DNA of 62,453 nucleotides, taken from the NCBI RefSeq assembly GCF_000003605.2, contig NW_003122908.1, forward strand, positions 1,067,259-1,129,711. The letters are read 5' to 3'. Below the pieces are notes generated by a model. The model saw nothing but the letters and a program-made list of their open reading frames with translations. It did no database searches and was not told where the DNA came from. Source of the stretch: Saccoglossus kowalevskii (taxonomy: Eukaryota > Hemichordata > Enteropneusta > Harrimaniidae). Below, in pieces: positions 20,759 to 55,821 of this stretch. A program made the position numbers and the translations under genes. Position 1 is the stretch's first letter, and each line of letters begins with the position of its first letter.

Positions 20759-20890
20759 CTACTTATTTTGATAGATAGGTTCTTTCTGTACAGTTTCATA
20801 TACATTTGTCACAATATCATTCAAGTTGATCGTCGCATAGGCATTTTCCTCAGTAACATTATTCTTGTCGACAGCCATAGAGTGTGTTTT
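20759..20890 (-). CDS. Gene 1 last exon: cytoplasmic tail with three tyrosines
   Basis: Encodes 43 residues starting KTHSMAVDKNN and ending EPIYQNK, then TAG. The tyrosines are in NAYATI, NVYETV and PIYQNK. The first two are nine residues apart between motifs (YxxI-x9-YxxV), within the range of ITAM-like pairs. The third fits a YxN SH2-adaptor site. Neither has the I/V/L/S at -2 that defines an ITIM. The acceptor is ...AAATTACAAG|AAAACAC, the one that keeps phase with the helix exon; the upstream TTTTAG acceptor would need another phase. Confidence 0.72.
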   Translation of the reverse strand, partial: KTHSMAVDKNNVTEENAYATINLNDIVTNVYETVQKEPIYQNK

Positions 20891-23800
20891 CTTGTAATTT
20901 CTAAAAGTAATAATTCACAGAGAACACTGAGGGAATTACAGTACACAACTGAAAAATAAAATATATCTGTGATATATTTATAGGACGATGTATTTCCATT
21001 ATATAATATACATTTTACACGATAGTATTGTAGCCCACACACGATATTGTTGCCATACAATACAAGAAACAAATAAAACTACTTGCAGATATTTGAGGCA
21101 ACCAACTATCATACCCACGCCGAAACCAATAGCCAAACACACTGCACCAACACAGGCTAGGATGCCTGTAAATAAGAGTGATATTGTCAGACAAAAAAAT
21201 AGGGTAACACTATTTGCAATCATACAAAATTATCGTAGCTTTTGTATCGAGAAAAAAAAATATAACCTATTGATACAGTGTCACGACTTTCTTCTAATTG
21301 TGGTATAGTATGTGGAGAAAAATATTCACTGTGGTTCATCGTTGAAGATTCTATTTCTATGTGAAAAAATGCATAAAACAATCAGCAAGGTGTATATACA
21401 TATAAGAGACAGTGGGAAGTATTGTTGTGAATACACTGATGATAATATCGACTGAGCTTCAAATTGAATGTACGAGTTATAACAAGGTGTATGTGCAACC
21501 TATAGCCTCAATATATAATACATCATTGTAACTTACTATTGCATATAACGTTATTGTGGTTCCATAGACCACTTTTCTCACATAATGTAACCATCGATGT
21601 GACCGGTTCATATTCATCGGTACAAGTGTATCTGCACTCACTACCATAATTCACACCATCCGAGCATGATGGCCATTCAGTATTTGATCCAGGTGGCGGT
21701 ATATCACAAGTGGTAACTGGAAATAGTGATCAAACAATATTTTTGGTAACATGCGTTTATTCGCGCTGAACATGAATTTAGCTTTCTGATTGTATGGTGC
21801 AATTTCTCTTTATAAGATTATAGTTTTTAATAATAGAAACTTTTTCGACACGAGGTACAAAATGCATTGTTACATTACGTTAGAACTGGGGGTTGTAATT
21901 ATATGGTTTGAATATCTATTGATAATAAATAAATAATTAATTCGACTGCGATTAACAGGCTTGGGATATTACCAATAAATTGATTATTCTCTGAATGCAT
22001 TTATCTCGTCAGTTAAATGGCCACACTCTTCACATTTGTGTAAACAAACACTATTTAGAGAAAACTTACTATTGCACTGAATGCTAGTGTGATTCCATTG
22101 ACCACTTCTATCACATAAAATAACCATTGATGTGGCAGGTTCATATCCATCGATACACGTGTATCTGCACTCACTACCATAATACACACCATCCGAGCAT
22201 GATGGCCATTCAGTATTCAACCCAGGTGGCGGCATATCACAAGTAGTAACTGAAAATAACAATAAAAAATATTTGACATGAGTGTATTCCTAGTTTTTGA
22301 TGTTATGCAGTTATGTCTGGCATGTATGTCACATATGCATAAAAATACTATGCATCCAGAGATAGGGATATTACCAAGAAATTGATTATTCTCTGAATGC
22401 ATTTATCTCGTCAGTTAAAGGGCCACACTCTTCACATTTGTGTAAACAAACACTATTTAGAGAAAACTTACTATTGCACTGAATGCTAGTGTTATTCCAT
22501 TGACCACTTCTATAACATAAAATAACCATTGATGTGGCAGGTTCATATCCATCGATACACGTGTATCTGCACACACTACCATAATACACACCATCCGAGC
22601 ATGATGGCCATTCAGTATTCAACCCAGGTGGCGGTATATTGCAAGTAGTAACTGAAAATAACAATAACAAATATTTGACATGCGTGTATTCCTAGTATTT
22701 GATGTTATGCAGTTATGTTTGGCATGTATGTCACATATGCATAAAAATACCATGCATCCAGAGATAGGATTTACATCAAATGTAAATAGGTGTTGAATTA
22801 ATGATATCGTTAAAATAGAATAAAATAAATCATAACAAATCACTTTTCAGTTTATGCAAATCACATCGACCTTCTACTCTAATGGCGTATGCATGTAGGA
22901 AAAACTATGCAGAAAAGCCTTGCAGGCTGACGTTTTCGTACGGATAGGTTCGGCAAATTTGATTACTAAAATAATCGTCAATACAGTTAATATCAACAAT
23001 CAACAATATTGTCAATACAGATGCAAAAAAAACACACATTGATAATGCATAGTCCCTGTTCAGTATTAGCTGTAGTTGATCTAAATGTTCAGTACAAGTG
23101 ACATGTAGAAATGAAAGATCAATGTTTTTGTAACACTAACACACATTATAGATTGTGTTACTGTTACCTACATGGAAACTTTGAAATGAATTGGACTATA
23201 TCTTACAGAGGAAGCCAGCCAGTCGGGTATTGTTAGTTGTTCAAGTATCTCTAAAAGAAATATGGTTTGCACCGTAACCAAATATATAAGGTCATCATAC
23301 AAAGTTTGATTAAAAATGTCCTATTCAACTTTGAACTGAATCAGGCCATATCGCCCTGTTAAGCTCAAAGAAACAGTTCCCGACATGTTACATAATGATA
23401 TTTTACGTTTTTTTGACAAAATTGCCACCATTTCGACAAATTTTATCAAACCTCAAGACAAAACATGATGTTGTGTTACCTTGCAGCATGTGCACCTATG
23501 TACACACTTTCAAGTGAATCAGGTCATATCTTTCAGAGGAATCGGCACAATAACGGAAAAAAACAAAACGGCCACCAGTCGGTCCAAATTTTGAAAAAAA
23601 AATATGATGTGCACGAGTGACCAAGTATACATAATCATCATACAAAGTTTGAGTGAAATCACTCTGTTCAGCTCCGAGAAACAGTTCCGGACACGTTCCA
23701 GACTGTGATTTTAAGATATTAAACAAAATGGCTGACATTTCGACAAATTTTATCAAATCTCAAAACAAACATGGTGTTGTGTTATCTTAAAGTATAGTAC

Positions 23801-26800
23801 CTATGTACAGACTTTGAACTGAATCAGACCATATCTTAAGGAGGAATCAGCATGAAAACGGACAAGCCAATAAGCCAATATGCATGGTCACCATACAAAG
23901 TTTGATTGTTCAGCTCCGAGAAACAGTTTTGGACACGTTTAAATATCAGAATTTAGCAAATTTGACGGACAAAATGGCTGCCAGTCAGCCATATTTAATC
24001 GAATCATAACGAAAATTGGCGTGCTGTCTCTCGACCACGGTGTGGAAAATTACTAACCTAGCTTATAGACATGTCTTATATTCTAGTATGCCAAGCCGGT
24101 CACGTGAATGAAATAAATCATAATATATCCATCAGTCAATGCAAATCACACCGACATCTGTTCAGTATGAACCAACAGTCACGCTTACTGGCTGCCAAAT
24201 TTGGACATCGAAATGGAAAGGATCAGCAAACTCATTCACTATCACAATCAGAGTAGTGTTATCAACCCAGATGCAGAAAACCACAACGCATTTCACTTGT
24301 GCTACGCGAACAGCTGACACAACAACACAAATGAAGCGTAGAATTTCAATACGTAAACGAACGCACAAGCAGCCGGATCGTCAATTAGGTCGGCAGATGA
24401 CTATTTGACGTCCAAAATTCATGTCAATAAACACGTTGTTCAACATCTACTTTTCAGCACTGTTGTCCGGTACTGTTGTTGCACGTCTCGCTACACCACA
24501 CAATTTTAACAAGTAAACTCCCGAATTTAAGATTACAAAACAAAAAGGACTAGTCGGTGAGCAAATGAGTAATTGATGGAATGTCATTTTTAAACGTTTA
24601 TTAATATTCAATTATACCCAAACGGAGTATAGTGTTATTAATTAGTTCCCGGAAATAGCTAAGCCAATAATAATTATGATTTACAGGTTAAAACAACATG
24701 CAACTAGGCATACGTGATAAATATTTGGGCTTATTAGAACATTAGTGTACAAAACAATTATTGCAACATTGTATACAATTTTATTGTCTGTGAACTGACG
24801 AGTATAATGTTGGATACGAGCATTGGATTGGATATATTAAATTTGGTAATTGGTTTAACTGTCTTGTGGGGACCGACTGAACGTTATCAGTGGACTCATT
24901 TTTTTGTAATTGCCAGAAAGAATATTCGGAATATTTATCGTATGGTGATTGAGTTAATTCCAGGAGAAATGTTGTATTAACAGAATATCATATGTAAATA
25001 TTCAGAAATTAAATATTGGACTCACTGTAATTCTCGCAAACATAACCCCATGGCCGAAGTGTACATGGTAGGTCATTCCACCCATGGATGTTTCTGTAAG
25101 TGAAGTATAACTAGATTTTAACAACTTGTAGTGATTAATTTCCTCACACAATGACATCGGTGATTATAAATATAAAATAAATGGTGAAAGATGTAAAGGC
25201 AATATATTCATTAAAACAGTGTTTTATCATCATTGTGATAACATATTTGATACTGACTGCCCACACGTGGGCAATTAACTGAAAATACGTCATAATAAGT
25301 AACTTATACCGTATCTCCACACAGTCTTCATTCCTTCGGTAATCATCAGGTTGCCCAGGAGACCAATCAGCATACGTCACCTGCCCTCCGTTCACGTACA
25401 CAAACGAATTTTCGTTGTATATATCATTAGCACCAATCCAAACAGACTCTGTGATAAATAAAATTAATATTCATAAGTTAGTAAGCATATGAAGCACATA
25501 CTTCACAAACAGTTGAGATATGGTCAATTAAATAAAGGCAATATATACTATATATGTGTCTGTTTTCACATCTTGTCAGTTAGTACTAGATTATTGGATC
25601 CGATATCTTATTAATAATTTTATTGAAATGCCAAAACATAGATAATGAATATATGAACAACCACCATGTAAACAATACGCATAATTATAACTTGATTATA
25701 TTGTTGAGACATTAAAGATGAGCTTGAAGATATCGACTTCTTCAGTTTAACTGAAGTATTCGATGGTTTAGATAGTTGATATGAATATAGTTGTAAATTA
25801 CGATCTAAGAGTCGCGTATTTAGTTCTAAGATTACCTGCTTCTGGGGGCAGCATTGCCACTACATACGAGTTATCTTCATCAGATCTGATTTCTGCTAAA
25901 TGAGCGTTGATAGACTCACAAGCTTCACGTGCTTCGTACCAGGTAAGTTGACCTTGTACAACCTCATATGCAGGCCTGCCTGGAGAATGTAGTCAGATAA
26001 AGTGTCACATAGGGTAATACTTGCGCAAACAGATTCGACACAATCTTGGATTTATTATTCTATCTACTCTTGAATATTTACATTTGTTAAGGCATAACGC
26101 ACAACGATCACGTTGTACATCCGTTTTTTATGTCTGTCAGATTGAATGTTTAACGTGTATATTTGTATTTTCTTGATCATTTTTAACGAATATGTCGCTA
26201 AAAGTACACGTCAGTAAACTGTCATACTAATTATTTTAAGAAGAATAAATACGATGTTTATATATGAAACAAAATCTTGTTTAATATATTATTCACTATA
26301 ATCATTGCTTTATACAATGTTTGACCTTGGCCAGGCTCAATAAACAGACTAATCAGTCCAAAAAGGGGTCAACATTTACTATAATAAAGTTAACATTTTG
26401 TAAAAGTCTATAGTGCACGATGTTTGCTGCTTCAGTTTCCAATGTCAACATTACATCACACTTCTCATAATTCGTTTGTATTTTTATATTTTATAATTCC
26501 TCCAATATCATTCTCACATTTATGATTTGGGTATGTAATAACATTGTAACAGCAATGCAGAAGCCATTCAACCTGGCCACTCAGACTGTACTAAAAAAAT
26601 CGCAATACAACAACACATTTTCGGGGCAGAAGCCATTTAAACTGTGCTAGTCATAACAATACCTTGATACAATAATTAGATGTATTACACTTTGTTGTAT
26701 GCATCAAGAAAAATGTTACATTTTCGACCGGTTTACAAATTAGACGCAAAAAAATGTGGGAAACAATAGGCAAGAATCAATCTTTAGAATAATATTAACT

Positions 26801-29800
26801 TTGTCCAAGCGCGGATGCAGATATAACGTTCACAGGCAGAAGGGTTAAGAAGAATATTTAACGAAAATGAGCAAATCGAATTGGCTATGAGGCACATTAA
26901 TATATAATTATATTTTAGAAACTGGTTAGGCTACATATTGTTCAGTACTGATTGCTACACGCGTACCAAGTTTTAAATATCAGATTCAGCAGGCTAAAAA
27001 ACATTATGCTTTCGTAATTCAGATTTAGGCAAATTTGGAATTTACCAAAGCACACAACAGTAACTCCTGTTTAACCTATATGTTGTATCCTTGCGAGCAA
27101 GCAGTGAAAAATAAAGTATCTCCAGGCTTATTGAGTGACAGACGTTTCCTTCGATAACGAGGCTTTAAAATAGACAGAATCATTAAGTGGTGCGGTGTCG
27201 GTCGTAAACACAAGTTTCGAAAAATCAATATTTATTCACTTGCTTAAACGTCGGCGAACAAAACCATTTTTATTATGTTTATAAGATGATTAGTGAATCG
27301 TCTATGCATACCATGTGTTCAGTTAATTCTCATAATCTAGTACATGAGAAAACATGTGGTAAAACGTGTAGACATTAACCATGCTCGCCAGCCATGGTAA
27401 TACAGAACAAACACAACCTTAATTGGCTATTGACCTGGCCCCCAAGATTTACAACGTGAAAATCTACTAGAGATTTTATGTTGCATAGTTAAGTATTATT
27501 GTTCAACTCTTAAAATAGGAATTCGTACATACTTGTTGTTGCTAGATAATGGTATGTCGTACTTGTCTAAATAGAGAAGAAACACCCCGAGCATACATTG
27601 CAAAATATGACATTTGGCATGTAGTAATTTGTTACCGCTTTTTATATACTGTTTATATAATCAGAATACCAATACAAACTACGCAGACAAGCCGTGCAGG
27701 CTGACGTTTTCGTACATGAAAATGTACGGAAAGGTTCGGCAAATTTGATTACTAAAATAATCGGAAGAATATTGTCAATGCAGATGCGAAACAACAACAA
27801 TAAACAAACACACAATGACATTTCACGTGGGTTTGCGCAGCTGTCAGGATCGCGTCAACGATAAGCGCAAAAAACAAGAATAGAGCTTACAATTTGAATA
27901 CGAAAAAAAGGCGCAACGAGCAGGTCGGCAGATGACTTTGACGTTACAAAGGTTTTAACTAGGTAATTCCGTTGGTGATCAGGGGCGGACTGATGATGTG
28001 TGCCTTCTAAAAAGTCAATAACGGCCGTCCGATCTACGGCCATCGGGCCTCAGTACTAATCATTCTACTTCAAAATAGCCAACATTCAGAATGAATAATG
28101 GCGTAAAAGTTCAGGGCCGCTTTTTGTTCTCAGTCCGTCCCTGTTGGTGATTGGAAGGTATCAAAGCAGTCACCGCGCCCAACGTTGGATTATAGGAAAA
28201 GTTTAACAACATGAAAAACGCTGTACATGCGCAATACGTCAATCACCACTGCACCACTGCAGGCTTCCTTCTCTCGATCACGTGGTTGCAAATTATTCAC
28301 CCAAGCTTATAGACATTCCTCATGTTCTAGTATGCCAAGCCGGTCACGTGAAATGAAATAAATCATAATATATCCATCAGTCAATGCAAATCACATCGAC
28401 ATGTGCTCAGTGCGAACCAATCAGTCACGCCTTTCACTTGTGCTACGCGAACAACTGACACAACAACACAAATGAAGCGTAGAATTTGAATACGTAAACA
28501 AACGCACAAGCAGCCAATTGGGTCGGAAGATTCATGTCAATAAACACGTCCTTGATCAATATCTACTTTTCAGTACTGTTGTCCAGTACTGTTTTCCTGG
28601 GTTGTTGTACGTCTTGCTGCACCACATGATTTTGACAAGGAAACTCCCGAATTCATGATTACAAAACAAAAAGGACTAGTCAGTGGGCAAATGAGTCATG
28701 CAATTGGTGGAATTTAACTTTTAAACGTTTATTAATATTCAATTATACCCAAACGGAGTATAGTGCTATTATTTAGTTTCCGAAAATAGCTAAGCCAATA
28801 ATAATTATGATTTACAGGTTAAAACAACATGCAACTAGGCATACGTGATAAATATTTGGGCTTATTCGAACATTAGTGTACAAAACAATTATTGCAACAT
28901 CGTATAAAATTGTATTGTCTGTGAACTGACGAGTATAATGTTGGATACGAGCATTGGATTGGATATATTAAATTTGGTAATTGGTTTAACTGGCTTGTGG
29001 GGACCGACTGAACGTTATCAGGGCACTCCATTGCCAGAAAGAATATTCGGAAGATTTGTCGTATGGTGATTGAGTTAATCTCAGGAGAAATGTTGTATTA
29101 ACAGAATATCATATGTAAATATTCAGAAATTAAATATTGGACTCACTGTAATTCTCGCAAACGTAACCCCATGGCCGAAGTGTACATGGTAGGTCATTCC
29201 ACCCATAGATGTTTCTGTAAATGGAGTATAACTAGACTTTGACAACTTGTAGTGATCAATTCCCTCACACAATGACATCGGAGATTATAAACATAAAATA
29301 AATGGTGAAAGATGTTTAGGCAATATATTCATTAAAACAATGTTTTATCAACATTATGATAACATATATTTGATATTAACTGTCCACATGTAGGCAATTA
29401 ACAGAAAATATGTCATAATAAGTAACTTATACCGTATCTCCACACAGTCTTCATTCCTTCGGTAATCATCAGGTTGCCCAGGAGACCAATCAGCATACGT
29501 CACCTGCCCTCCGTTCACATACACAAACGTATTTTCGTTGTATATATCATTAGCACCAATCCAAACAGACTCTGTGATAAATAACATTGAGGTCCATTAA
29601 TATTCATAATTGTAGTATTTTGTATATTACATTTCACACCACGGTAAGTAAGTGTGCATATGAAGCACATACTTCACAAACAGCTGATATATGGTCAATT
29701 AAATAAAGGCAATATATACTATATATTTGAAGGACATGTGTGTCTATTTTCACGTCTTGTCAGTTAGTACCAGATTCTTCAAAAATTTTAATACAAACTA

Positions 29801-32800
29801 GATCATGTTACGTTATAAATTAATTAACTTTTATATTGAAATTTTAGTGTTGGCATTATCTATAAGCCTGATATTTTTTAAATTAATATTGCCTTGCAAA
29901 TACTATTTCCCGCTTTTGGTAAAATATGGACCAATTGGTACCACAGCGTGTATACATCACTTTCTTATTTTTCTTCTACATTAAGTAAAATTATTAAATA
30001 ACTTTTACCCCAGTCATTTTTTCTATAATCACTCATCCGAACCAACAGGTATGTTTGGTTATATCAACTATATATCAACTACCTGATCTTAAAGTCTCGG
30101 TCTTTTTGTAATAATCTGCAAGTATCAGAAACGACTAATCACAGTTGAGCTGACTTGTCGCATGCCAAGTTTAATATCAGATGTTGTTGATACATATCCA
30201 AATGTTTTAAATATCACTCATTAACTTTGGATATATTTAATGCACCCTATTATTATAACGACAAGGGAGAGGGAGAATTCAGTTCAGCATGTCTTGTATT
30301 TGTTATTCATTTCCACATTGAGTATTTACAGTTTATAGAACTCTCGTTCTGGCAAGGTCGAGCGTCCTTATTAACGGCCAAGTGTCTTTAAACCGTATTC
30401 GACCAAGTTAATAACTTTAATTTTGGTGTTTAATACCATCTTCATTACTATAAATAAGTGAGAAAATGTTTCTTACAGGTTTAAACATTGTTATTGAATG
30501 TCATGTCATTCCCCGATTATAAGCTTCGTAGTGGTATTGGCGAAGATATTGAGAATGCTAAAACACAATATCTGGTTCCACATTTTGCTAATTCAAGTAC
30601 ATACGTATTTTTTCTCATTTAGATTCACAGTCCGTAATACTATTCTATTAGATGATATTCCACAAAAGCCATAAACAGTTGATACTGTAGCATGCGACTC
30701 CATAAAATAAAAAAACAGTCTATCGCAGTTTACATACGTCATGATCGGTTTTGAAGTACTGTTACGATTTTAATAAAGTTATTGTTGGACCCGATATCTA
30801 ATTAATAATTTTATTGAAATACCAAAACATAGACAACGAATACGTAAACAATATGCATGATTATAACTTCATTATATTGTTGAGACATTAAAGATGAGCT
30901 TGAAGATATCGACTTTTACAGTTAAACTGACGGTGAAGTATTCGATGGTTTCGTAATTTACAACTATATTCATATCAACTAAGAGTCGAGTATATAGTTG
31001 TGAGATTACCTGCTTCTGGGGGCAGCATTGCCACTACATATGAGTTATCTTCATCAGATCTGATTTCTGCTAAATGAGCGTTGATAGACTCACAAGCTTC
31101 ACGTGCTTCGTACCAGGTAAGTTGGCCTTGTACAACCTCAAATGCAGGCCTGTCTGGAGAATGTAGTCAGATAATGTGTCACATAGGGTAATACTTGTGC
31201 AAACAGATTCGATACAGTCTTGGATTTTTTTATTCAATCTACTCTTAAATATTTACATTTCTTAACGCATATACGGTCTCTGCCTTTTCTGATTATTCAA
31301 CCTCTACTTGTGCATCAGTTTTTTTTTATCTCAGTCAGATTCACTTTTTAACGTGCATATTTGTATTTCTTTGATCCTTTTTAACCAACGTGTCACTGAA
31401 CCCCCAAATAGTTCGCTAAAAGAACACGTCAGGTGAAATATCAGTAAACTCTCAGACTATGTATTGTAAGTAGAAAATGCTTCATTTTTCTCTGTCCTGC
31501 ATGCACTCATATATTTTAGTTTTGACCTGTATATTTGGATACATGAAATAAATACGATGTTTATATATAAAACGTGTTCACTAACAAAATCTTGTTGAAT
31601 ATATTAGTCACTATAATTATTGCTTTATACAATGTTGACCTTGGCCAGGTCAACATTTGTTATACCGAATAAAGTGAACATTTGATGTAGTGCAAATGTT
31701 TGCTGCCCCAGTTGCCAATGTCACTTCTCATAATTATCATAATATTATTCTCACATTTATGATTTTGAGAAGTAACTACAAGCAACGTGCGATCATCCAA
31801 CAATGCAGAAGCCATTCACTCTGGCCACTCAGTCTGTACTAAAACAACGCAATACAACAACTCATTTTCGGGGCATGAGCCATTTAACCTGGCCTAGTCA
31901 TACAATTTCCTTGATAGAATAGTTGGATGTGCTAGACTTTGTTTTGTGCATCAAGAAAAATGTTACATGTGAGAAACTTAATGGGAAAGAATCAATCTCT
32001 AGATTAATAGTAACGTTTGACCAAGCGCGGACGCAGATATAACGTTCACAGACAGTGGGGTTAAGAAGAGTATTCAACGGAATTGAGCATATCTGATTGG
32101 CTATGAGGCACATTAATATATAATTATATTTTAGAAACAAACTGTGGTTAGGCTACATATTGTTCAGTACTGATTACTACACACTTAGCAAGTACTAAGT
32201 ACTAATATTCAGCAGGCTAAAAACAAATCATGCTTTCGTAATTTAGATTTGTCAAATTTGGAAAATACCAAACCAAATAACAGCAACTCCGGTATAGCTT
32301 ATACGTTGTATTCATGCGAGCAGGAAGTGAAAAATGAAGTATCTCTAGACTTGTTGACAGACGTTTCGGTCGATAACGAGGCTTTCGGTCAGACAGAATT
32401 ATTAAGTGCTGCGGTGTCAGTCGTAAACACAAGTTCCGAAAAATCAAGATTTATTCAGTTGCTTGAATGTCGGTGAACAAAAACATTTTTTTATGTTTAT
32501 AAGATGGTTAGTGAATCGTCTATGCATACCATGTGTTCAGTTAATTCTTATAATCTAGTACATGAAATAACAGGTGGTAAGACGTGTAGAACGTAAACAT
32601 CCTCGCCAGCCATGGTAATACAGAACAAACACAACCTTAATTGGCTATCGACTCGCCCCCCCCCCCCAAATATACAACGTGAAAATCTACTAGAGATTTT
32701 ATGTTGCGTAGTTAAGTATTATTGTTCAACTCTTAAAATAGGAATTCGTACATACTTGTTGCTAGATAATGGTATGTCGTACTTGTCTAAATAGAGAAAC

Positions 32801-33123
32801 ACCCCGAGCATACATTACAAAATATAACATTTGGCATGCATTAATTTGTTAACACTTTGATACAATTGTAGGGCTAGCAATTAGCATAACAGAAATTGAG
32901 ATCAATATTTAAAAAATAAATTATTTACTGGTATATAAAATACATACTACATACGATGTCAATTAACAATATCAAATGTTGTTGTTGTTTCTCAAATATT
33001 TCCGATGGTGACACTATTCAGAAGGATTTTAAATCAGTTAAACTCACCATGATTGTTAACATATTCAGAGCTGCATATCGATGCCATAATAACTGCAACC
33101 CAACATGTAATGATCACAATCAT
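20759..33123 (-). CDS. Receptor gene 1: signal peptide-CTLD-CTLD-CCP-CCP-CCP-TM-tyrosine tail
   Basis: Twelve exons read on the minus strand: 33123-33048, 31153-31010, 29571-29433, 29214-29147, 25979-25836, 25448-25310, 25093-25026, 22651-22472, 22249-22070, 21716-21537, 21165-21083 and 20890-20759. All junctions have ag acceptors and gt donors, phases agree throughout, and the sum is 1533 nt, or 510 codons plus stop. The product is a type I membrane protein with two Ca-type lectin domains, three six-cysteine sushi domains, one helix and a 43-aa tail with three tyrosines. By domain order it resembles selectins without the EGF module. I infer a glycan-binding cell-surface receptor, perhaps for immune recognition or adhesion. 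The two CTLDs could be alternatives rather than both included, since each is phase 1-1. The model is by eye, without transcripts. Confidence 0.8.
21083..21165 (-). CDS. Gene 1 transmembrane exon
   Basis: An 83-nt exon between CTTATTTACAG| and CTGCAA|gtagtt. It encodes a hydrophobic helix beginning ILACVGAVCLAIGFGVG and ending in the stop-transfer KYLQ. It enters in phase 1 from the last CCP exon and leaves in phase 0. The counterpart at 46607-46689 has the same length and differs at few residues. Confidence 0.82.
21537..21716 (-). CDS. Gene 1 CCP/sushi exon 3 (membrane-proximal)
   Basis: A 180-nt phase 1-1 exon encoding one sushi domain: TTCDIPPPG, WPSCSDG, YGSECRYTC, SMVTLC, W and VICN. It has six cysteines. 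CTDEYEP replaces the CIDGYEP of the other repeats, so the usual GY is EY here. Closest to the membrane-proximal CCP of gene 2. Confidence 0.85.
22070..22249 (-). CDS. Gene 1 CCP/sushi exon 2
   Basis: A 180-nt phase 1-1 exon, one six-cysteine sushi domain (CDIPPPG, WPSC, GSEC, YTC, VILC, IQC). It is nearly identical to exon 1 at 22472-22651, and the surrounding intron is duplicated with it. Confidence 0.87.
22472..22651 (-). CDS. Gene 1 CCP/sushi exon 1
   Basis: A 180-nt phase 1-1 exon: CNIPPPG, WPSC, GSVC, YTC, VILC, IQC. It differs from exon 2 at a handful of residues (for example CN for CD, SVC for SEC, CYRSGQWNN for CDRSGQWNH). It joins the phase 1 end of the CTLD exon. Confidence 0.87.
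23160..24000. repeat. Degenerate tandem repeat, unit about 315 bp, three copies
   Basis: The motif ACTTTxAAxTGAATCAGxxC, then ATATCTT and GAGGAA, recurs near 23175, 23503 and 23817. The linked motif CATACAAAGTTTGA recurs near 23300, 23640 and 23895. It lies in the intron between the CTLD and CCP parts of gene 1. Confidence 0.65.
25026..25979 (-). CDS. Gene 1 second CTLD (three exons)
   Basis: Exons 25979-25836 (144 nt), 25448-25310 (139 nt) and 25093-25026 (68 nt); the module begins and ends in phase 1. The first encodes the helix region LTWYEAREACESINAHLAEI, the second WIGANDIYN, then TYADWSPGQPDD and EDCVEI, the third GWNDLPC and WGYVCENY. The four canonical CTLD cysteines are present. QPD with WND predicts Ca-dependent binding of galactose-type sugars. 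The donor after AATTACA is gtgagt. Nearly identical to the first CTLD. Confidence 0.87.
27690..32850. repeat. CTLD module, duplication copy B
   Basis: Partner of 22850-27650. The match resumes at 27690 with CAGGCTGACGTTTTCGTAC and ends near 32850, short of the signal-peptide exon at 33048. Confidence 0.75.
29147..31153 (-). CDS. Gene 1 first CTLD (three exons)
   Basis: Exons 31153-31010, 29571-29433 and 29214-29147 have the same sizes and phases as the second CTLD. Text differs slightly: FEVVQG for YEVVQG, NENTF for NENSF, IYGWND for IHGWND. QPD and WND and all four cysteines are kept. It splices in frame to the signal-peptide exon (giving NNHD then RPAF) and also to the second CTLD (NYS then RPAY). 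Confidence 0.87.
33048..33123 (-). CDS. Gene 1 start exon: signal peptide
   Basis: ATG at 33123, then MIVIITCWVAVIMASICSS, a hydrophobic secretion signal probably cut after CSS, then EYVNNH and a phase 1 donor ATG|gtgagt. The copy at 55746-55821 has the same length and donor and reads MIVFITCWFAV at its start. No ATG lies close upstream in frame. Confidence 0.83.
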
Positions 33124-33213
33124 CGTTTCAAACGTTTCGGCTTTGTAGATATAAATGTATCAGAATCCGTCTTGTTTTGGAAGTGTGTGTACTCGGATTT
33201 CACCACGGATTAA

Positions 33214-35938: not shown

Positions 35939-35939
35939 A

Positions 35940-40090: not shown

Positions 40091-40148
40091 TTGCCCATAC
40101 CATCAAAGATGGAAGGGAAAGGTATATTAAGGGAAAATTTTTGTCTGG

Positions 40149-42239: not shown

Positions 42240-42243
42240 TTAA

Positions 42244-42542: not shown

Positions 42543-42546
42543 TTAA

Positions 42547-45690: not shown

Positions 45691-46282
45691 ATATACCGTT
45701 GTAGTACCAATGATTCCTAGCAACCAAGCAACTACCCGGGTAACTCTGATTTCCAAACAATATTTGTTCTCCAACGTCAGAGTGTGATGACTTGAAAAAT
45801 TGGATCGACCAATCAAAGCGCGCAAAAAGTCCTTCGTCGGTGGCGGCGCTGTTAAATATTGATAACCTACGGCTTTCTCTATTTATCCCACATGTCAAAT
45901 TGGCGAAGACATTAAATAAAGATATAACGGCACAATATTTAGTTTGTGTGTATATTTATTACGTATATTACGTTATTCATTATTACTTTACAAATAGCTA
46001 GTTACCCGTGGAGCTAAGGGCGTGTAACTAGTACACTTACTTTATTCTACACAAAAAATATATCACTGATCCAACACTTTTGTCTATTGCCCTTGGTTAT
46101 AACCTACATTTATGTGACAAACTCCTTAGTCGGAAAATTTAAAACTGGTCATTCGGCGGCGCTAGGACCCATTGCCGTTTTCTGACACTTTGAGGTGCTT
46201 ATTTCATTTCCAATTTCATTTAATACGCTATATTGAATGTGGTACATAAAAGATTGAACATACCCGGGTTACAATGAATACA

Positions 46283-46414
46283 CTATTTATTTTGATAGAT
46301 AGCTTCTTTATGTGCTGTTTCATATACATTTGTCACAATATCATTCAAGTTCATTGTCGCATAGTTATGTTCCCCAGTTACATTACTCTCGTCGGCAGCC
46401 ATAGAGTGTGTTTT
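46283..46414 (-). CDS. Gene 2 last exon: cytoplasmic tail
   Basis: Same length as in gene 1 (43 aa). Starts KTHSMAADESN and ends EAIYQNK, then TAG. Tyrosines sit in NYATM, NVYETA and IYQNK. All three tyrosines and NLNDIVTNVYET are unchanged, but the +3 residues I and V of gene 1 are M and A here, so the ITAM-like fit is weaker. Confidence 0.72.
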   Translation of the reverse strand, partial: KTHSMAADESNVTGEHNYATMNLNDIVTNVYETAHKEAIYQNK

Positions 46415-49400
46415 CTTGTAATTTCTAAAAGTAATAATTCACAGGGAACACTGAGGGAATTACATTACACAACTGAAAAAATAAAATATATCTCTGATAT
46501 ATTTATAGGACGATGTATTTGCATAATATAATGTACATTTTACATGATAGTATTGTAGCACACATATCATATTATTGCCATACACAATTAAAACAATTAA
46601 AAATACTTGCAGATATTTGAGACAACCAACTATCATACCCACACCGAAACCAACAGCCAAACACACTGCACCAACACAGGCTAGGATGCCTGTGAATAAG
46701 AGGGTGACATTGTCAGACAAAACATTTTTAGCGTAGCACATTGTATGTTTAAAATTAACATCTAGTATCAGTATTTGTTATCTTAAGTGTAATCATACAA
46801 AATGATCGCAGCTTTTGTATCGGAAAGAAAGAAAGTATAACCTGTTATTACATTGCCACAACTTTCTTCTAATTGTGGTATAGTATGTGGAGTGAAATAT
46901 TCACTGTGGTTCACCGTTGAAGAATCTATTTCTATGTGAAAAATAGCATAAAAAATTAGCAATTTGTATATACATATAAGAGACAGTGGGAAGGTTTGTT
47001 GTCAATGCACTGACGATAATATCCACTGAGCTTCAAAATGAGTGTACGAGTTATAACATGAAAGATGTATGTGCAGTCTATAGCCTCAATATAACATGAA
47101 TCCATTATGTTTATTAAACTTACTATTGCATATAACGTTATTGTGGTTCCATAGACCACTTCTCTCACATAATGTAACCATCGATGTGACCGGTTCATAT
47201 CCATCGATACACGTGTATCTGCACTCACTACCATAATTCACACCATCCGAGCATGATGGCCATTCAGTATTTGATCCAGGTGGCGGTATATCACAAGTAG
47301 TAACTGGAAAAGACGATGAAATAATAGTTTGATAATAGATAATTAATTCGACTGCGATTAACAGGCTTGGGATATTACCACGAAATTGATTATTCTCTAA
47401 ATGCATTTAACTTGACAGTTAAAAGGTCACACTCAGTCTTCACATTTGTGTTAAAAACACTATTTAGCAGAGAAAACTTACTATTGCATTGAATACTAGT
47501 GTGATTCCATTGACCACTTCTCTCACATAATGTAACCATCGATGTGACGAGTTCATATCCATCGATACACGTGTATCTGCACTCACTACCATAATACACA
47601 CCATCCGAGCATGATGGCCATTCAGTATTCAACCCAGGTGGCGGTATATTGCAAGTAGTAACTGAAAATCAAAATAAAAAATATTTGACATGCGTGTATT
47701 CATCGTTTTTGATGTTATGCAGTTATGTTTGGCATGTATGTCACATATGCTTAAATATACCATTCATCCAGACATAGGATTAACACCAAATGTGAATAGT
47801 TGTTAAATGAATGTCATCTGTCATATTAAAGTCCACCAAGTGATCGGTCAAATATAATAGAATAAATCATAACAAATCATCTCCCAGTTTATGCAAATCA
47901 CACCGTCCTTCTACTCTAATGGCGTATGCATGTAGGACAAAATATGCAAACACACCGTGCAGGCTGACCTTTTCGTACATCGAAATGCAAAATGTACGGA
48001 AAGGTTCGGCAAATATGATTACTAAAATAATCGGGACAATATTGTCAATACAGAAGCAAGAACAAAAAACAACAACAACAACAAACAAACAAACACACAA
48101 TGACATTTCACATGTGCAGCTGACAAGATCGCGTCCACGATAATCGCAGATAAAACAACAAACAATGGAGTGCACAACTTGAATACGGAAATCAAACGCG
48201 CAACGGGCAGATGACTATTCAATAAATTTGTACGCGGTAAATACTAGTTATTGCAACATCGTATACAGAAGATTGTAATGTTGGATATGAGCGATGGATT
48301 GGATATGTATTGCATATGATGACACACAGTGCCGTTTGCTGATAATTGGTTGCGGGGGACCGACTGAATGTTATCAGAGGACTCCATCTTTTGTAATAGC
48401 CAGTAGGAATATTCGGAATATCTATCGTATAGTGATTGCTTGACTGTCGACAGTCATCGGATATAATGTAATTGTGTATCCTGGACAGTCATGGGAAATT
48501 CGAAGCATTTAAGCTAGGGCCTTTAGTCTGCAGGTTTCTAGTTATGAATAGTTATCAATAATTCATAGTTGATGATGATGTCATGAAATAAATTATATTA
48601 ACATAATGTATGCAGATTTATTCTAAATGCCGCTCCCCGTACGTACGCTGAGGTAGTTTGAATCTCTCAAAGATGGAGCTACGTCACGACACCCCAAACG
48701 TTTCCAGAACCAATCACAAACAGGAATAGACAATGAATTTTCGGATAAATACCTCTGTTTTCCCTCACGCTAACCAACTTTCCCCAACGCTAACGAACAA
48801 ATCTTTTGTTTTCTACTGACTTCCTGATCCTGATCCCGATCCGTCTTTGATAATATTGTCTCGCTGGTATTCTTTGCAAAAAATATCATCCATGATCTAA
48901 ACGTTCCAGCACCTTTATAACGTTAAGATTGGCCACAATAAAATGATAGACATCTCCGAGACTATCATTCGCATATGAAAGTACCCGGATTTGGTCAAAA
49001 GTCTTAAAATTGAATTGCAGCCCGGCCTAGCGCAATTTATTCACGCTTATTACGTTTATACACAATATTTATTATTAATAATAGGCTGTCACTAGTCGGT
49101 CGTACCTAATATTTAATATAATTTGAATATATATTTGAATATATATTTGAAGTATACATGTGTCTGTTTTCACGTCTTGTGAGTACCAGATCAAAATCCT
49201 CGAAATTGTTAATACAAACTAGATCATGTTACATTATAAATTTCATATTGAAATGTTAGTGTTGCTTTTTAGAGTTAATATAAGTGATTGCGTTAATCCC
49301 ACGGGAAATTTTGTATTAAGAGTATATACTAGTATCTTATATAAATATTCAGAAAGTAAATATGGGACTCACTGTAATACTCGCACACACCCCAGAGCCG

Positions 49401-52400
49401 AGATGTACATGATAGGTCATTCCACTTAAACCCATTAGTCTTTCTGTAAGTATAATAACTGGAGATCAATTCCCTCACACAATGACATCGGAGATTATAA
49501 AATAAATAGTGATAGATGAACACGCAACATATTCTTTAAAAGAAAAAAAAGATATGTCCACAAGTAAGCAATTAACAGAAAATAATAATTAACATTCACC
49601 GTATCTCCACACAGTCTTCAATATTGCTATTGTCAGGTTGCCCAGTAGCCCAATTAGTATACGTCACCTGTCCTCCGTTTACATACACAGACGTAGTTTC
49701 GTTGTATATATCATTAACACCAATCCGAACAGGCTCTGTGTTAAATACAAATGATGTTCATTATTACCATAATTGCAGTATTTTGTATATTACATTTCAC
49801 ACCACGGTAAGTAAGTGCGCATATGAAGCACATACTTCACAAAGAGCTGATATATGATCAATTAAATAAAGGCAATATGTACTATATATTTGAAGTATAC
49901 ATGTGTCTATTTTCACGTCTTGTGAGTACCAGATCAAAATCCTCGAAATTGTTAATATAAACTAGATCATGTTATAAATTTCATATTGAAATGTTAGTGT
50001 TGCTTTTTAGAGTTAATAGTGTCTTGCAAATACTATTTCCCACTTCTGGTAAACTCCGAACCAACGAGTACCACAGCGCGTTTACAGCACTTTCTCGTTT
50101 GTTCTGCGACATAAGTAAATTTATTAAATAACTTTACCACCCCCACCCCCCCCCCCCCAGTCATTTTTTTTTCTATAATCATTCATCTAAACCAATGTAT
50201 GCTTGGTAATATGAATGTTGATACATATGCCAGTGTTTTAAATATCACTCATTAACTTTGGACAGATTCAATGCACCCAATTATTATAACGACAAGGAAA
50301 TGGGAAATTCACACGAGTTCGGAATGGCTTGTATTTCTATAATCTTATACATTTCTACAGTTTATATAACTGCCCAGTTTATAAATCATACGAACGTGTA
50401 ACAATTACTTAATTAAGAGTTGGAAGTTCGACCTTGCTTATTGGCGAACAAGTGTTTTTAAACTGTATCATTGATAATTAAATGCTTCTTCGTGCCTAAA
50501 GAAAATCGCTCAATATCTGGTTCCACATTTTGCTGTTTCGTATACATATGTATTTTGTTCTCATTTAGATTCATAGTCCGTATACTATTCCATTAGGTGG
50601 TGTTTCACAAAAATCATAAGCAGTTGATACCATACCATGTGCCACCATAAAATATTGCTGTCATAATCGTTTTTGAAATACAGCTACTTTCTATTAAAGC
50701 GATCTCCTTGCTATTCCGTGGCCGCCTCTACCTTCTGTAACCGATCAATGGAAAGTAATTGCATACATATGTTATGGAGGTTGTTATTTTAGTGGGCCCG
50801 ATTTCTTGATAAATATTGTATTGAAGTATCAAAGCATAGCTAATAAGTATATGAACACCTACCATGTAAAAATAAGCATGATTATAACACGATTATATTG
50901 CTGAGACATTCAAGATAAGCTTGAATATATCGACTTTAAAGTATATTCTTCAATTCAGTTCAACTGGCGGTGAAGTATTCGATGGTTTAGATAGATCGTG
51001 ATTTACAACCGTGTTCATATCAACTAAGAGTCGCGTATATATTTCTAAGATTACCTGCATCTTCAGGCAACAATGCCACTACTTCTGAGTTATCTTCATC
51101 AGATCTGATTTCTGCTAAATGAGCGTATCTAGACTCACAAGCATCACGTGCTTCGTACCAGGTAAGATGATCATTCACAACCACATATGCAGGCCTGTCT
51201 GGAGAATGTGGTCATATAAAGTGTCACATGGGGTAAAACTGGTGCAAACACATTCGACACAATTTTGGATTTATTATTCAATCTACTCTTAAATATCTAC
51301 ATTTGTTAACGCATATACAGTCCCCGCCTTTTCTAATTATTCAACCTCTTAAAGAGAGAGTGCATGGCAATAGTTAGAATTTGGTCGATAATTAATATGT
51401 TTGTTCCGGTAATAAGTGTTCTCATGTTTAACATTACGTCAGTGCCAAAGTAGATAAGGATAAAACATCTGATTTTGCCCCAGAAATTCCGTACATCAAT
51501 ACAATTATAGAATATATGGAGACTGTCTTCAACGACGAAACACTTATCACAGAATAGTGTGTTTCGTATTTTCCATTTGTACGGATTATATCCATTTGGC
51601 AAGATACAATTGAATAAATTTAAATATAAAATTTGACAGTTTTCTGTCATAAGTAGTGTACATACATCTTTTTCTCTAAATATGTTTCCAATATTCAGCT
51701 GGTATGTCATACTTTTTAGACCACATATATTCAACATAAGGTTTTTCAATTTGTTGTTGGATCAAATTTGTGTACACCAACTTTGAAGTTATATTCGAAA
51801 GCATACCGTCATCATTATTAGTGTTAATATCAGATTCCGTGACACTCCCAAGCAAACTTATCCATGGTTTCAGGGCGTTACAAAGCACGTAATATTCATT
51901 TACCCAGAAGTCTTGTTATATAAAATAACGTAGAATCTTGTCCAGGTCTATTTTGTTAGCAGTTATTATGTCTTGCATGTAGATAATATTAGACTTAAGG
52001 TAGCGGGACTATTATTTGCATACTTGTTGTCATCTTCTAATTGTGACCAAACGACTACAGACCCAAGAAAGTATATATTTGTGGAATCGCCAGACTTCAA
52101 GCTTTTCAAAGGTGTGTTTGCCATGCCCGTATCTGCATTCTACGGTGCGTTACTCAATCAAAAGTGAAAAAATACTTTTTTTTGTAAAATAAATAATTAC
52201 GCATTTATGCTGGTGATAAGAAGGTTTTTTTTCACTTTTCCTAGTTGTTCAATAGTCTGGTAAATTGAATGTGTCTGGTCAGTTGTAATTTCTAGCAGCG
52301 CGTTTTGAAAAGTAGTGTCCTGAATTTTAATTTCTGTTTTAGTCGCATTGCCCCCAACTCAAACCACAACACATTGGTCAATAATAATCCATGAAATAGT

Positions 52401-55400
52401 TTGTCTGGACACATTCAAGTTCCTCTCATTGTCACCTTATAGCTGTGAAAATTTGGTGTTAATCCGACGACAATAAGTATATGTTATTTTTTGTTAAAGA
52501 CCTTGTATTTTGAAAAACATAAACTCTTAGAAAACGTCCATGAAGTCACAGCAAAGATTTTCAAGCTTGTTTATCGGTACATGTTTTTCCTTCAAGGTCT
52601 GTTTTAACATATGTAGGGGGCATCCACATGTGTAAGGCTATTGGAAACCAAAAAATAAAGGAATGGGATAGCTATAATTCGATAAAAACGGCAGATGAAA
52701 ACACCAAAATCAATGATTTTTTTCAGTGGCTGTGTGACCTTGTGTCTGAAACATTCATATGCAAATGACTAATCTGTGAAATAAACAAGGGCAAACCACT
52801 AACAAATGTTTGGAAACCACTCAAATGTTTGGAAACACTCATTGTGTGTCAGATAGCTAAATAAAATAAATATTTCAAATAAATAAATAAATAAATAAAT
52901 CGTAATTTTCAACACAAATAATAGTCTCGCTACCTTAATCCAGTTAGAAAAGAATATGGGTTTTCCATAGTAAACAATGAATCTATTACCCCAAATATTT
53001 TTTTAATATAGATTTGGTGCAAATTTGTTTAGAAGGTATCATGTTTGATTGGTGTAATGCATGAATCATTTCTTTATAAAATGCTGGCAGAGATCCAAGA
53101 TTAGGACAGTGTTGGAGATTTGAAAAATTACAGTGAAAAATTATTTTGTGCATGTTATTTTTCCTGAGATAGAAAAATGGTATTAACTTCCAACTGGGTG
53201 CCATTTCTTTATCTGTTTTTTTTTGTCAGCAGTCTTTTTACCCACGCTGCCTTTAACGCTTTATTATGAGCAAAAATATCTATCATTTTGATACCACCTT
53301 TTATATTTTATGGTTTTTGATATTTTATGGTTTTTACTCCCCCATAAAAATTTGAAAAACATAACATCAATCTCTTTCAAGGAATTATAGCTATAATCCA
53401 GAATGGATAAAATACATGTTAATTGTGACAGAGCGAAAGTCTTCAGAATTGTCATTTTACCGTACAGGATAATATTTCGTTTTCTCCAGGGCATAATATT
53501 CTTTTCTATCTGGGCTATCTTAACTTCCCAAATCTTATTTTTACAAAGTGTTATGTCTGTATGAAAGTACACCCCCAAAGATTTAATCGGCTCATTAGGC
53601 AAGTTGATATTTCCCAGAAAATGTTTCCTGTTTTTCCATTTCCTGATCCACATACCATCTGTTTTAGTGTTATTTAAAAGTGTCCCAGCCACATTGCTGA
53701 ATCGTTTGACCGTTTCAATGGCTTCATAAAAACTGTTATCATTTGCTAAAAACAGGGTGGTGTCATCAGCTACTTGGCTAATTTTAATTTGACTTGCCAC
53801 AATGGTATTGATGATATTAATCCCTTCGATTTGTGGATTATTTTTAATTGTAATAGCTAGGATTTCAACCACTAAAAGAAAAAGTAGGGCTGACAGAGGA
53901 TAGCCCTGTCTGATACCTCTAGTGGGCTTGAAATTCCTAGATATATGGCCATTGTTAATTATGACGGAGTTTATGTTTGTGTACATAGTTTTGACATAAT
54001 TAATAAAACTTTGGCCCAAATCAGTTTTGTTTTTCATGTCTGTCAGATTGAATATTTAACGTGTATATTTGTATTTCTTTGGTCATTCTAACAAATATGT
54101 CACTGAACCTTCAGTTTACACAATATGGTAAAATGTCAGTAAACTGTAGTAGAAAACGCTTTTTTTTGTCTATACGAATACAGGAAATAAATACGATATT
54201 TATATATAAAACGTTTTCACTAACACAATCTTGTTTAATATATTATTCACTATATTTATTGCTTTACACAATGTTTGACCTTGGCCAGGCTCTATGTGCA
54301 GAATTGTCAAACCACAAAAGGGTCAACATTTATTATACCGAATAAAGTGAACATTTTGTAAAAGTATGTACTTCCAATGTCAACATTACATCACACTTCT
54401 AAGACTGTACTAAGACTGTACTAAAAAATAAAACTCAATACAACAACACATTTCCGGAGTTAAATGAAAAATGTAATCTAAACTCAACTCAACTCACAAT
54501 GAATGAGTCATAAAATCACCCTGATACAATAATAAGATTAGTACTTTGTTGTATGCATCAATAAAATTGTTACAGCTTTCGACCTGTACAAGTTAGATCA
54601 CGAAAAACTCAAAGGAAAAGAATCAATCTATAAATTGTCAACATCCTTTACTGTGTGATAACTGCCATGAAGGTGATTGACAGGTCATACAACTCTGGAA
54701 GGACAATTGGATCAACCAGGTGTACTTGTGATTTACATAACAAAGAATGTTTACTATCTACTGACTTGCTTGTGAGTGCCTGTATGTCATCGTGAGACAG
54801 CTGCTAGCAAGACCACATTCTGATTGGCTCCTGCGGAAACCACGGTTGTGTACCTGAAACTTGGCCATTTATGTCCTATAACTAGGCTAGACTGAAACAA
54901 GTTGGGGTCCACCATTTCAACTGAGTACTCTGTGTGTTGAATTGCTGCTGCGATATTGTGAGACAAGTGATATAGGCTTCAATCATCATTCCTGACTTTT
55001 GTCCAAGCGCGTAAGCATTATTCAAATACCAATTGATACAAATGTACCAAGTTTTACATATCAGATTCGACAGGCTAACAAAAATATGGTGCCGTGTCAG
55101 TTGTAAACACAAGTTCCGAAAGATCAATATTTATTCAGGTGCGAACGTCGGCGAACAAAACCATTTTTATTATGTTTATACGTTGGTTAGTGAATCGTCT
55201 ATGGATACCATGTGTTCAGTTAATTCTCATAATCTAGTATATGACATAACATATGGTAAGACGTGTAGACCGTAACCATACTCGCCAGCCATTGTAATAC
55301 AGAACAAACATAACCTTAATTGACTCGGCGCCTCAAGATTTACAATGTGAAAACCTACTGTTAGATACTATTACTATACTAGATTTTATGTTGCATAATT

Positions 55401-55821
55401 AAGTATTATTGTTCAACTCTTGAAATAGAAATTTGTACATACTTGTTAATGGTATGTCGTATTTGTCTGAATAGAGAAACACCGCAGATATATAGTACAA
55501 AATAGTATGTAGTAATTTGTTACCACTTGTTATATATTGTTTATATAATCCAAATTCCCATGGAATTGTAGGGCTAACAATTAGCTTAACTGAAATAAAG
55601 ATCATTATTTAAAAAATAAATTATTTACTGGTTTATAAAATACATACTACACACGGTGTCAATTAACAATGTCAAATGTTTTTTTCTTCTCAAATATTTC
55701 CAATGGTGACACTATTCAGAAGGATTTTAAACCAGCTAAACTCACCATGATTGTTAACATATTCAGAGCTGCATATCGATGCCATAATAACTGCAAACCA
55801 ACATGTAATGAACACAATCAT
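46283..55821 (-). CDS. Receptor gene 2: signal peptide-CTLD-CCP-CCP-TM-tyrosine tail
   Basis: Eight exons on the minus strand: 55821-55746, 51198-51055, 49735-49600, 49443-49373, 47661-47482, 47303-47124, 46689-46607 and 46414-46283. All junctions are gt-ag, phases agree and the sum is 1002 nt, or 333 codons plus stop. The product matches gene 1 but with one CTLD and two CCPs. The second CTLD exon is one codon shorter and the third one codon longer than in gene 1, so the frame holds. Intron 1 carries a LINE with a nested DNA transposon. Kept frames, phases and motifs argue for a functional paralogue. The CTLD is the most diverged part, which may reflect a different ligand. Confidence 0.8.
46607..46689 (-). 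CDS. Gene 2 transmembrane exon
   Basis: 83 nt between CTTATTCACAG| and CTGCAA|gtattt. Encodes ILACVGAVCLAVGFGVG, continuing to KYLQ. Counterpart of 21083-21165. Confidence 0.82.
47124..47303 (-). CDS. Gene 2 CCP/sushi exon 2 (membrane-proximal)
   Basis: 180-nt phase 1-1 exon with six cysteines (CDIPPPG, WPSC, GSEC, YTC, VTLC, VICN). GSNTEWPSC and GVNYGSEC match the membrane-proximal CCP of gene 1; here the CIDGYEP motif is intact. Confidence 0.87.
47482..47661 (-). CDS. Gene 2 CCP/sushi exon 1
   Basis: 180-nt phase 1-1 exon with six cysteines (CNIPPPG, WPSC, GSEC, YTC, VTLC, IQC). Counterpart of the duplicated CCP exons of gene 1. Confidence 0.87.
47700..49372. other. Gene 2 intron between CTLD and CCP parts
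   Basis: 47860-48240 matches 22850-23040 and 27690-27950 (CAGGCTGAC and TTTCGTAC motifs). 48240-48440 matches 24770-24960. The 315-bp tandem repeats of gene 1 are absent. No exon is seen in 48450-49150. GTCGGTCGTACCTAATATT at 49096-49114 recurs inverted near 58362. Confidence 0.5.
49373..51198 (-). CDS. Gene 2 CTLD (three exons)
   Basis: Exons 51198-51055 (144 nt), 49735-49600 (136 nt) and 49443-49373 (71 nt). Motifs: LTWYEARDACESRYAHLAEI, RIGVNDIYNET, TYTNWATGQPDN, EDCVEI, KWNDLSC and WGVCEYY. The four cysteines, QPD and WND are kept. The tryptophan of the conserved WIG is arginine here, a core position in most CTLDs, so folding or stability may differ. Confidence 0.83.
51999..52934. mobile_element. 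936-bp TTAA-flanked DNA transposon nested in the LINE
   Basis: TTAA at 51995-51998 and 52935-52938. Ends GGTAGCGGGACTATTATT and, reverse-complemented, GGTAGCGAGACTATTATT. It splits the LINE reading frame. No transposase: the longest frame inside (51973-52167) starts outside it. The GGTAG ends resemble the element at 1434. Confidence 0.82.
53264..54037 (-). CDS. LINE reverse transcriptase fragment
   Basis: 257 codons with core RT motifs in order: RGIRQGYPLSALLFLLVVEI (palm), then the catalytic box as QVADDTTLF where most have YADDT, then SLGVYF and YGKMTILKTFALSQL (thumb). The fingers region is missing at the 5' end. The Y to V change before ADD is at a position where aromatic or A/V residues occur; the two catalytic aspartates remain. 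It belongs to the insertion at 51350-54037 and is not a host gene. Confidence 0.85.
   Translation of the reverse strand: MKNKTDLGQSFINYVKTMYTNINSVIINNGHISRNFKPTRGIRQGYPLSALLFLLVVEILAITIKNNPQIEGINIINTIVASQIKISQVADDTTLFLANDNSFYEAIETVKRFSNVAGTLLNNTKTDGMWIRKWKNRKHFLGNINLPNEPIKSLGVYFHTDITLCKNKIWEVKIAQIEKNIMPWRKRNIILYGKMTILKTFALSQLTCILSILDYSYNSLKEIDVMFFKFLWGSKNHKISKTIKYKRWYQNDRYFCS
54038..55745. other. Rest of gene 2 intron 1
   Basis: 54038-54600 resumes the match to 26130-26760 and 31330-31990. 54640-54990 is the inverted copy of the repeat at 34900-35340. 55080-55640 matches 27190-27600 and 32400-32940. No exon is supported. Confidence 0.5.
55746..55821 (-). CDS. Gene 2 start exon: signal peptide
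   Basis: ATG at 55821, then MIVFITCWFAVIMASICSS, EYVNNH and a phase 1 donor ATG|gtgagt. Same length as the gene 1 start exon, with two replacements (I to F and V to F) that keep it hydrophobic. Confidence 0.83.

Follow-up and report, generated by a model that had tools for sequence, protein, structure and literature searches.

The window analyzed here is a 62,453-nucleotide stretch of Saccoglossus kowalevskii DNA, contig C1550:1067259-1129711 of a 572 Mb, 4830-contig genome that was searched throughout. It contains two genes, both on the minus strand: gene A, at window 33123-20759 with 12 exons, and gene B, at window 55821-46283 with 8 exons. Their products are predicted to be membrane receptors in which a C-type lectin-like domain (CTLD) stands at the head of a stalk of complement control protein (CCP) modules, followed by a helix and a tail with tyrosines. 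A preliminary description of the window had given closed frames of 510 and 333 codons over 12 and 8 exons. With the junctions given there, the models that we rebuilt have exactly these lengths and no internal stop; the consistency of the exon phases was reproduced in both, and both contain the architecture described, with signal peptide, CTLD(s), CCPs, one helix, and tyrosine tail. The two genes are real. Gene A begins with a signal exon, continues with two successive sets of three CTLD exons and then three CCP exons, and ends with the helix and tail exons. Gene B has the same order with one CTLD (three exons) and two CCPs. The exons, in window coordinates, are as follows.

33048..33123, minus strand: gene A exon 1, start codon and signal peptide, leaving in phase 1 (ATG; hydrophobic N-terminus, Kyte-Doolittle 2.71 over 15; donor GTGAGT)
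31010..31153, minus strand: gene A CTLD1 exon a (AG/GT sites, phase 1-1)
29433..29571, minus strand: gene A CTLD1 exon b, with VWIG, QPD, and EDCVEI (phase 1-2; C2261 exon alignable)
29147..29214, minus strand: gene A CTLD1 exon c, with WND and the last two Cys (phase 2-1)
25836..25979, minus strand: gene A CTLD2 exon a (rebuilt model)
25310..25448, minus strand: gene A CTLD2 exon b (rebuilt model)
25026..25093, minus strand: gene A CTLD2 exon c (rebuilt model)
22472..22651, minus strand: gene A CCP1, six Cys (phase 1-1, Pfam)
22070..22249, minus strand: gene A CCP2, six Cys (Pfam)
21537..21716, minus strand: gene A CCP3, six Cys (Pfam)
21087..21165, minus strand: gene A membrane-helix exon (GC donor GCAAGT, phase 1-2)
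20759..20900, minus strand: gene A tail exon, NYKK..YATI..VYET..IYQNK and stop (open frame, paralogue alignment)
55746..55821, minus strand: gene B exon 1, signal peptide (rebuilt model)
51055..51198, minus strand: gene B CTLD exon a (rebuilt model)
49600..49735, minus strand: gene B CTLD exon b, VRIG for VWIG, QPD kept (rebuilt model, CTLD alignment)
49373..49443, minus strand: gene B CTLD exon c, WND kept (rebuilt model, CTLD alignment)
47482..47661, minus strand: gene B CCP1, six Cys (Pfam)
47124..47303, minus strand: gene B CCP2, six Cys (Pfam, AlphaFold2 model of the exon)
46611..46689, minus strand: gene B membrane-helix exon (GC donor, phase 1-2)
46283..46424, minus strand: gene B tail exon, NYKK..YATM..VYET..IYQNK and stop (open frame, paralogue alignment)

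In both genes the signal exon leaves in phase 1, the three CTLD exons are 1-1, 1-2, and 2-1, every CCP exon is 1-1, and the helix exon is 1-2. The claim that A and B are tandem paralogues is borne out. Their aligned pieces are 76-100% identical, and the two units look like the result of one segmental duplication, with the CTLD segment then doubled again in A, where CTLD1 and CTLD2 are separated by three nonsynonymous and four synonymous differences across the domain. The repeats at 27247, 32465, and 55144 were considered as sites of a further CTLD exon, and this was rejected: the surrounding introns align equally (pieces of 76-100% identity), and by eye the repeats at 32465 and 55144 have no frame resembling a CTLD exon. 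The first intron of gene B holds a reverse transcriptase frame (window 53264-54055, minus strand; Pfam RVT_1, 3.8e-11), probably a remnant of a long interspersed nuclear element, and a 41-base tandem repeat lies at window 20412-20627, directly downstream of the gene A stop.

The preliminary description had all introns as gt-ag, and this did not hold for the helix/tail intron. Its junction ran from a helix exon ending ..CTGCAA|GTA to an AG 10 bases into the tail exon. In three paralogues on contig C2261, the helix exon ends ..AATCG|GTAAGC in phase 2, and the three tail exons begin right after a pyrimidine-rich acceptor, AG|A AAT TAC/TGC AAG. At the homologous codon place, A and B have the donor CT|GCAAGT and the acceptor TTTTAG|A AAT TAC AAG; donors of GC-AG introns usually read GCAAGT. 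The C2261 paralogues have their splice site at the corresponding position and in the same phase, and the helix/tail intron of both A and B is therefore most likely GC-AG. The earlier junction loses the residues NYK, which the C2261 paralogues encode there. A 13-residue tail, read in the frame that results from the GT donor and the first acceptor, is not kept in the C2261 genes and was rejected. The correction mends a gene model in which the tail would have been mis-spliced through a GT-AG intron, and the proteins become 512 (A) and 335 (B) residues long.

In Pfam, the product of gene A matches Lectin_C at 2.6e-43 (two stretches, 147.6 bits) and that of gene B at 8.4e-17 (one stretch, 62.3 bits), the curated cut-off being 22.6 bits. 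The four core Cys of a C-type lectin domain are present in each of four aligned CTLDs (A1, A2, B, and one from C2261). The CTLDs of A and B are of the short form, and each spans three exons. QPD, the E of EDC, and WND are found in all three window CTLDs. According to the available part of PMC12842671, the Ca-site motif EPN/QPD together with WND marks sugar-binding CTLDs. Judged from the QPD, the lectin head of A and B would bind glycans of the galactose (Gal)/N-acetylgalactosamine (GalNAc) type with Ca. The CTLD of the first C2261 gene has E-P-S in place of QPD, with WND present.

Pfam Sushi matches the stalk of gene A at 3.4e-20 (three stretches) and that of gene B at 4.5e-15 (two stretches). 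All five window CCPs have six Cys, the number also found in the CCP modules of selectins. Five AlphaFold2 models of the gene B CCP2 exon gave mean pLDDT (predicted local distance difference test) values of 91.9, 89.0, 85.4, 84.8, and 45.0. In gene A, which was the one scanned, mean Kyte-Doolittle hydropathy exceeds 1.6 over 21 residues at the N-terminus and the helix only. Five aligned helices show spaced glycines and no charged residue ahead of a terminal K, so pairing with an adaptor by charge is not indicated, and this argues for signaling by the receptor's own tail. The tyrosine tail noted earlier stands up as a single open frame in all five tails (A, B, and three on C2261); frame 0 alone is open, with one to seven stops in each of the other two frames, so the reading frame of the tail is certain. 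The three distal Tyr of A and B are in the contexts YATI/M, YET, and YQN. The third of these is also present in the first C2261 gene, and the two other C2261 tails end earlier. These Tyr contexts are conserved between the window and C2261 clusters. Contexts of the YxN and YxxM/I type would be appropriate docking sites for SH2 proteins, Grb2 or PI3K for example, and we infer that the tail of A and B may recruit proteins of this kind.

What other genes in the genome resemble A and B? A blended query of CTLD exon a gave 13 matches, three in the window and one on C2261 at 66% identity or more, and nine others at 53% or less. In the first C2261 gene, CTLD exons a-c could be read together with four CCPs, a helix, and a tail; no signal exon was found for it. 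The second, at C2261:2889419-2896840, has interrupted CCP frames, with two CCPs broken off or shortened, which suggests decay or an assembly error, and the third lies mostly within a stretch of N. A CCP query at E 0.001 gave 22 matches, five on C1550, seven on C2261, six on C2722, three on C2599, and one on C3461. On the first four of these contigs, 17 of the 21 matches have exactly six Cys, one has seven, and three are cut short.

The gene on C2722 (171892-180737, minus strand) has a different head. It consists of a signal exon, a pentraxin encoded in one exon (Pfam 3.8e-37), six or more CCPs of the window type, the helix IVVAVTVACLVIGLGLGFLIGYLK at 172.7k, and a tail at 172.0k. Its phases, read for the signal, the pentraxin, two of the six CCPs, the helix, and the tail, agree with the window genes, the signal exon leaving in phase 1, the head and CCP exons being 1-1, and the helix exon 1-2. 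The tail, RYDKVTFKNEYTKV, has two YxxV motifs with their Tyr nine residues apart. A second pentraxin exon (Pfam 1.4e-34), with three CCPs, is found on C2599. A pentraxin query at 1e-10 gave 87 genome matches, in which the C2722 and C2599 pentraxins are 63% identical and the next by E-value is 43%. CCPs beside other pentraxins gave no match in the two short flanks checked. Part of the 87 matches form large tandem arrays of pentraxin frames at C4257:167750-202476 and C350:216184-262948. Thus, a pentraxin exon stands before this type of stalk where the window genes have a CTLD, with the same phases on both sides. As read from these genes, the stalk and the phases support the exchange of CTLD and pentraxin; the helix supports it less, and the distal tail does not.

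A third kind of head may exist on C2443, which holds a relative of the window tail (47% identity, E 0.003). About 1.5 kb upstream, at C2443:56234-58563, two open stretches, when joined, match GP2 at 1.1e-7 and uromodulin at 3.9e-6 in a phmmer search of the PDB. These chains hold a D8C module, after which the C2443 segment is labeled here; the segment has no match to a Pfam model. A D8C head is therefore possibly present, as a lead. Tentatively, and at somewhat below even odds, these genes could be members of one head-swapping family, with a CCP stalk, a glycine-rich helix, and a tail joined in phase 2 placed under CTLD (single or doubled), pentraxin, and possibly D8C heads through symmetrical phase-1 exons, the tail being related in the CTLD and D8C members. 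In the open-licence literature searched, no title or abstract opening described a common CCP stalk, with a tyrosine tail, under CTLD or pentraxin heads.

Are A and B selectins? The preliminary description had proposed a selectin-like order without the epidermal growth factor (EGF) module, and the order itself was confirmed: CTLD, then CCPs, with no EGF-like module in the scanned introns. A loose regular expression run over window 20-57 kb and the CTLD-CCP introns returned only Cys-bearing hydrophobic runs and stray stretches. The CTLD-CCP introns of A and B each contained a single match, a hydrophobic stretch with Cys that lacks the glycine pattern of EGF, and the corresponding intron in the first C2261 gene contained no match; an overlooked EGF was thus rejected. 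A special kinship with selectins was not upheld. In a CTLD profile search, LY75, PLA2R, and the mannose receptors lead, followed by mosGCTL-1, Fc-epsilon-RII, and collectins, and there is no selectin in the best 60 of 169 matches; this is a profile ranking, not a tree, and multi-CTLD chains lead it because their scores add up. In the CCP profile, complement receptors and pappalysin rank ahead of E-selectin, which is reached only at 6e-4, the scores of multi-CCP chains likewise adding up. Vertebrate selectins resemble A and B in having the CTLD first, six-Cys CCPs, one helix, and a short tail, and the PDB matches of gene B include E-selectin (3.4e-12). However, the CTLD of A and B is in three exons, whereas that of Fugu selectins is reported in the available part of PMC514892 to be in the 5' exon, and gene A has two CTLDs rather than a single one-exon N-terminal CTLD. 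Given that the scan revealed no EGF and that the CTLD is spread over three exons, we conclude that A and B are not selectins, and it is very improbable that they are true invertebrate selectins that have lost the EGF.

Furrowed, a fly protein, is itself not known to have an EGF module. Its homologue TcCTL15 in the beetle Tribolium has a CTLD, CCPs, and one helix and is described as the only selectin of that beetle's genome; it has 11 CCPs and an F5/8C domain, and EGF is not among its domains as listed in the available part of the source (PMC9954269). Clam 'type-A P-selectins' (Sinonovacula and Mercenaria) have CCPs plus CLECT or EGF and occur in tandem clusters (PMC9484242, available part). 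Both join a CTLD to CCPs, so the layout, for which the preliminary description knew of no described family, has been described before. A CTLD with CCPs and a helix but no EGF, and tandem CLECT/CCP genes, are already known; the new part is the exchange of heads. A and B have the CTLD, several CCPs, and one helix of the Furrowed (CTL-X) type, and they also fit the clam type as it is described. The word 'transmembrane' occurs 0 times in the main text of PMC9484242, and helix, tail, and phases are not described in its available part. This likeness in parts, together with the report that the second CCP of Furrowed mediates homophilic adhesion (PMC9954269, available part), would fit adhesion receptors that attach through their CTLD and CCPs to the same or another cell and whose tail merely anchors or sorts. 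We consider this rather unlikely. The genes of the window and C2261 clusters have two to four CCPs, vs the 11 listed for TcCTL15, with tandem genes, a doubled head in A, and a tyrosine tail exon, and F5/8C is absent from A and B; the conserved Tyr contexts speak against a tail that merely anchors. Furthermore, tandem duplication, head doubling, and the change to a pentraxin head look more like recognition of varied targets.

Two other molluscan systems are relevant, each as described in the available part of its source. In the VIgL family of Biomphalaria (FREP, CREP, and GREP), lectin domains (fibrinogen, C-type, and galectin) are exchanged on a shared module (PMC5433772), as heads would be here; those are plasma proteins with Ig domains, whereas the present genes have a CCP stalk, a membrane helix, and a tyrosine tail. 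CgCLec-CCP of the Pacific oyster also joins a CTLD with CCP and is reported to have an immune role, but it is reported to act with MASP in complement activation (PMC12842671).

We suggest, with a probability of about 0.55, that A and B are head-swapped innate receptors with a Ca-lectin head, a CCP stalk, a helix, and a signaling tyrosine tail. They would be type I single-pass receptors in which a Ca-dependent short-form lectin head, doubled in A, is carried on a six-Cys CCP stalk. With their relatives in this genome they would form a small family, and the recognition head (CTLD or pentraxin, perhaps D8C) would be exchanged through phase-1 exons before a like stalk, a similar helix, and a tail exon in the same phase. 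Through the QPD, the head of A and B may bind terminal Gal/GalNAc glycans on microbes or neighboring cells. Clustering of the receptor would then lead to phosphorylation of the tail tyrosines, and the phosphorylated tail would dock SH2 proteins and so signal for phagocytosis or adhesion in cells of the blood or of epithelia. By analogy with the mollusc C-type lectins and TcCTL15, as described in the available parts of PMC9954269 and PMC12842671, an immune role is likely.

How does this proposal fit the selection on the exons? Between the window and C2261, the ratio of nonsynonymous to synonymous substitution rates (dN/dS) is 0.16-0.45 for the tested pairs overall. It is 0.19-0.28 for CTLD exons a and b, 0.17-0.45 for CCPs (three of the four CCPs of the C2261 gene were used), 0.16-0.39 for the helix, and 0.21-0.41 for the tail, all of these ratios being rough because dS is 0.5-1.9; the signal exon and CTLD exon c lay outside the comparison. 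As judged by these values, the window exons are conserved as coding sequence more than by chance. Between A and B, dN/dS is 0.16 for the helix and 0.23-0.39 for matching CCPs; the young pair of gene A CCP1 and CCP2 gives 1.28, from six differences. With the A-B lectin values given below, this pattern suggests long-standing selection on most of the receptor, with the lectin heads of A and B now diverging quickly.

A number of observations weigh against the proposal, as does the roughness of the dN/dS ratios. Between A and B, dN/dS is 0.61 for the tail and 0.83-0.92 over the CTLD, so recent constraint on the B lectin is weak or its target has changed. In the gene B CTLD, R replaces the W of the WIG motif, with QPD, EDC, and WND retained. 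There is no AATAAA in the 1.26 kb past the gene A stop, and there are two past that of gene B. The immunoreceptor tyrosine-based inhibitory motif is [I/V/L/S]xYxx[L/V/I], and by eye the tail has no strict example: the residues at -2 of the three distal Tyr are N, N, and P in A and H, N, and A in B, with YxxI/V in A alone. The corresponding activation motif, YxxL/I-x6-8-YxxL/I, was likewise not seen by eye, the first and second distal Tyr being 13 apart and the second being YETV/YETA. For the exchange of heads, the C2722 tail has no clear similarity to the window tails past its start, and its helix gives a weak match only, best E 0.15, to C2261. On C2599 no convincing helix or tail was found up to 371000, and on C2443 no CCP was found in 48001-68000 and the helix frame looks broken.

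Some of these points could also mean that either gene, or both, is in decay or encodes a soluble lectin, with the joined receptor rarely or never made. The A-B lectin values, the WIG tryptophan lost in B, the non-canonical GC donor of the helix/tail intron, and the interrupted CCP frames of the paralogue at C2261:2889-2897k would fit this. Nevertheless, A and B are open in all exons and keep their GC donors alike, and the low A-B ratios of the helix and matching CCPs speak against this reading. Decoy or secreted forms are thus improbable, and we retain the reading of A and B as membrane receptors with exchanged heads.

Apart from A and B, the window holds at 3282-4259, on the plus strand, a rhodopsin-type G-protein-coupled receptor in a single open frame of 325 residues (7tm_1, 4.8e-32). 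Elsewhere in the assembly, C4830 is the mitochondrial contig, with 17037 bases and 40% GC. By eye, cox1 and nd6 are opposite to cox2, atp6, cox3, nd3, nd4L, nd4, nd5, cob, nd2, and nd1; the gene names other than COX1 are our presumptive assignments. Its cox1, cox2, and nd1 fit ATA=Met, TGA=Trp, and AAA=Lys, with one AGA in a Ser-like place and no AGG, as judged by conserved residues.

Diversification of soluble lectins is known from invertebrates, and the same logic may extend here to membrane receptors that have a tyrosine tail of their own. If the proposed exchange is true, membrane receptors of different ligand class share one stalk. If the pentraxin and CTLD genes share the stalk and anchor by descent, they would be a membrane counterpart of the VIgL idea and would allow a direct test of coupling one kind of anchor and tail to different ligands.

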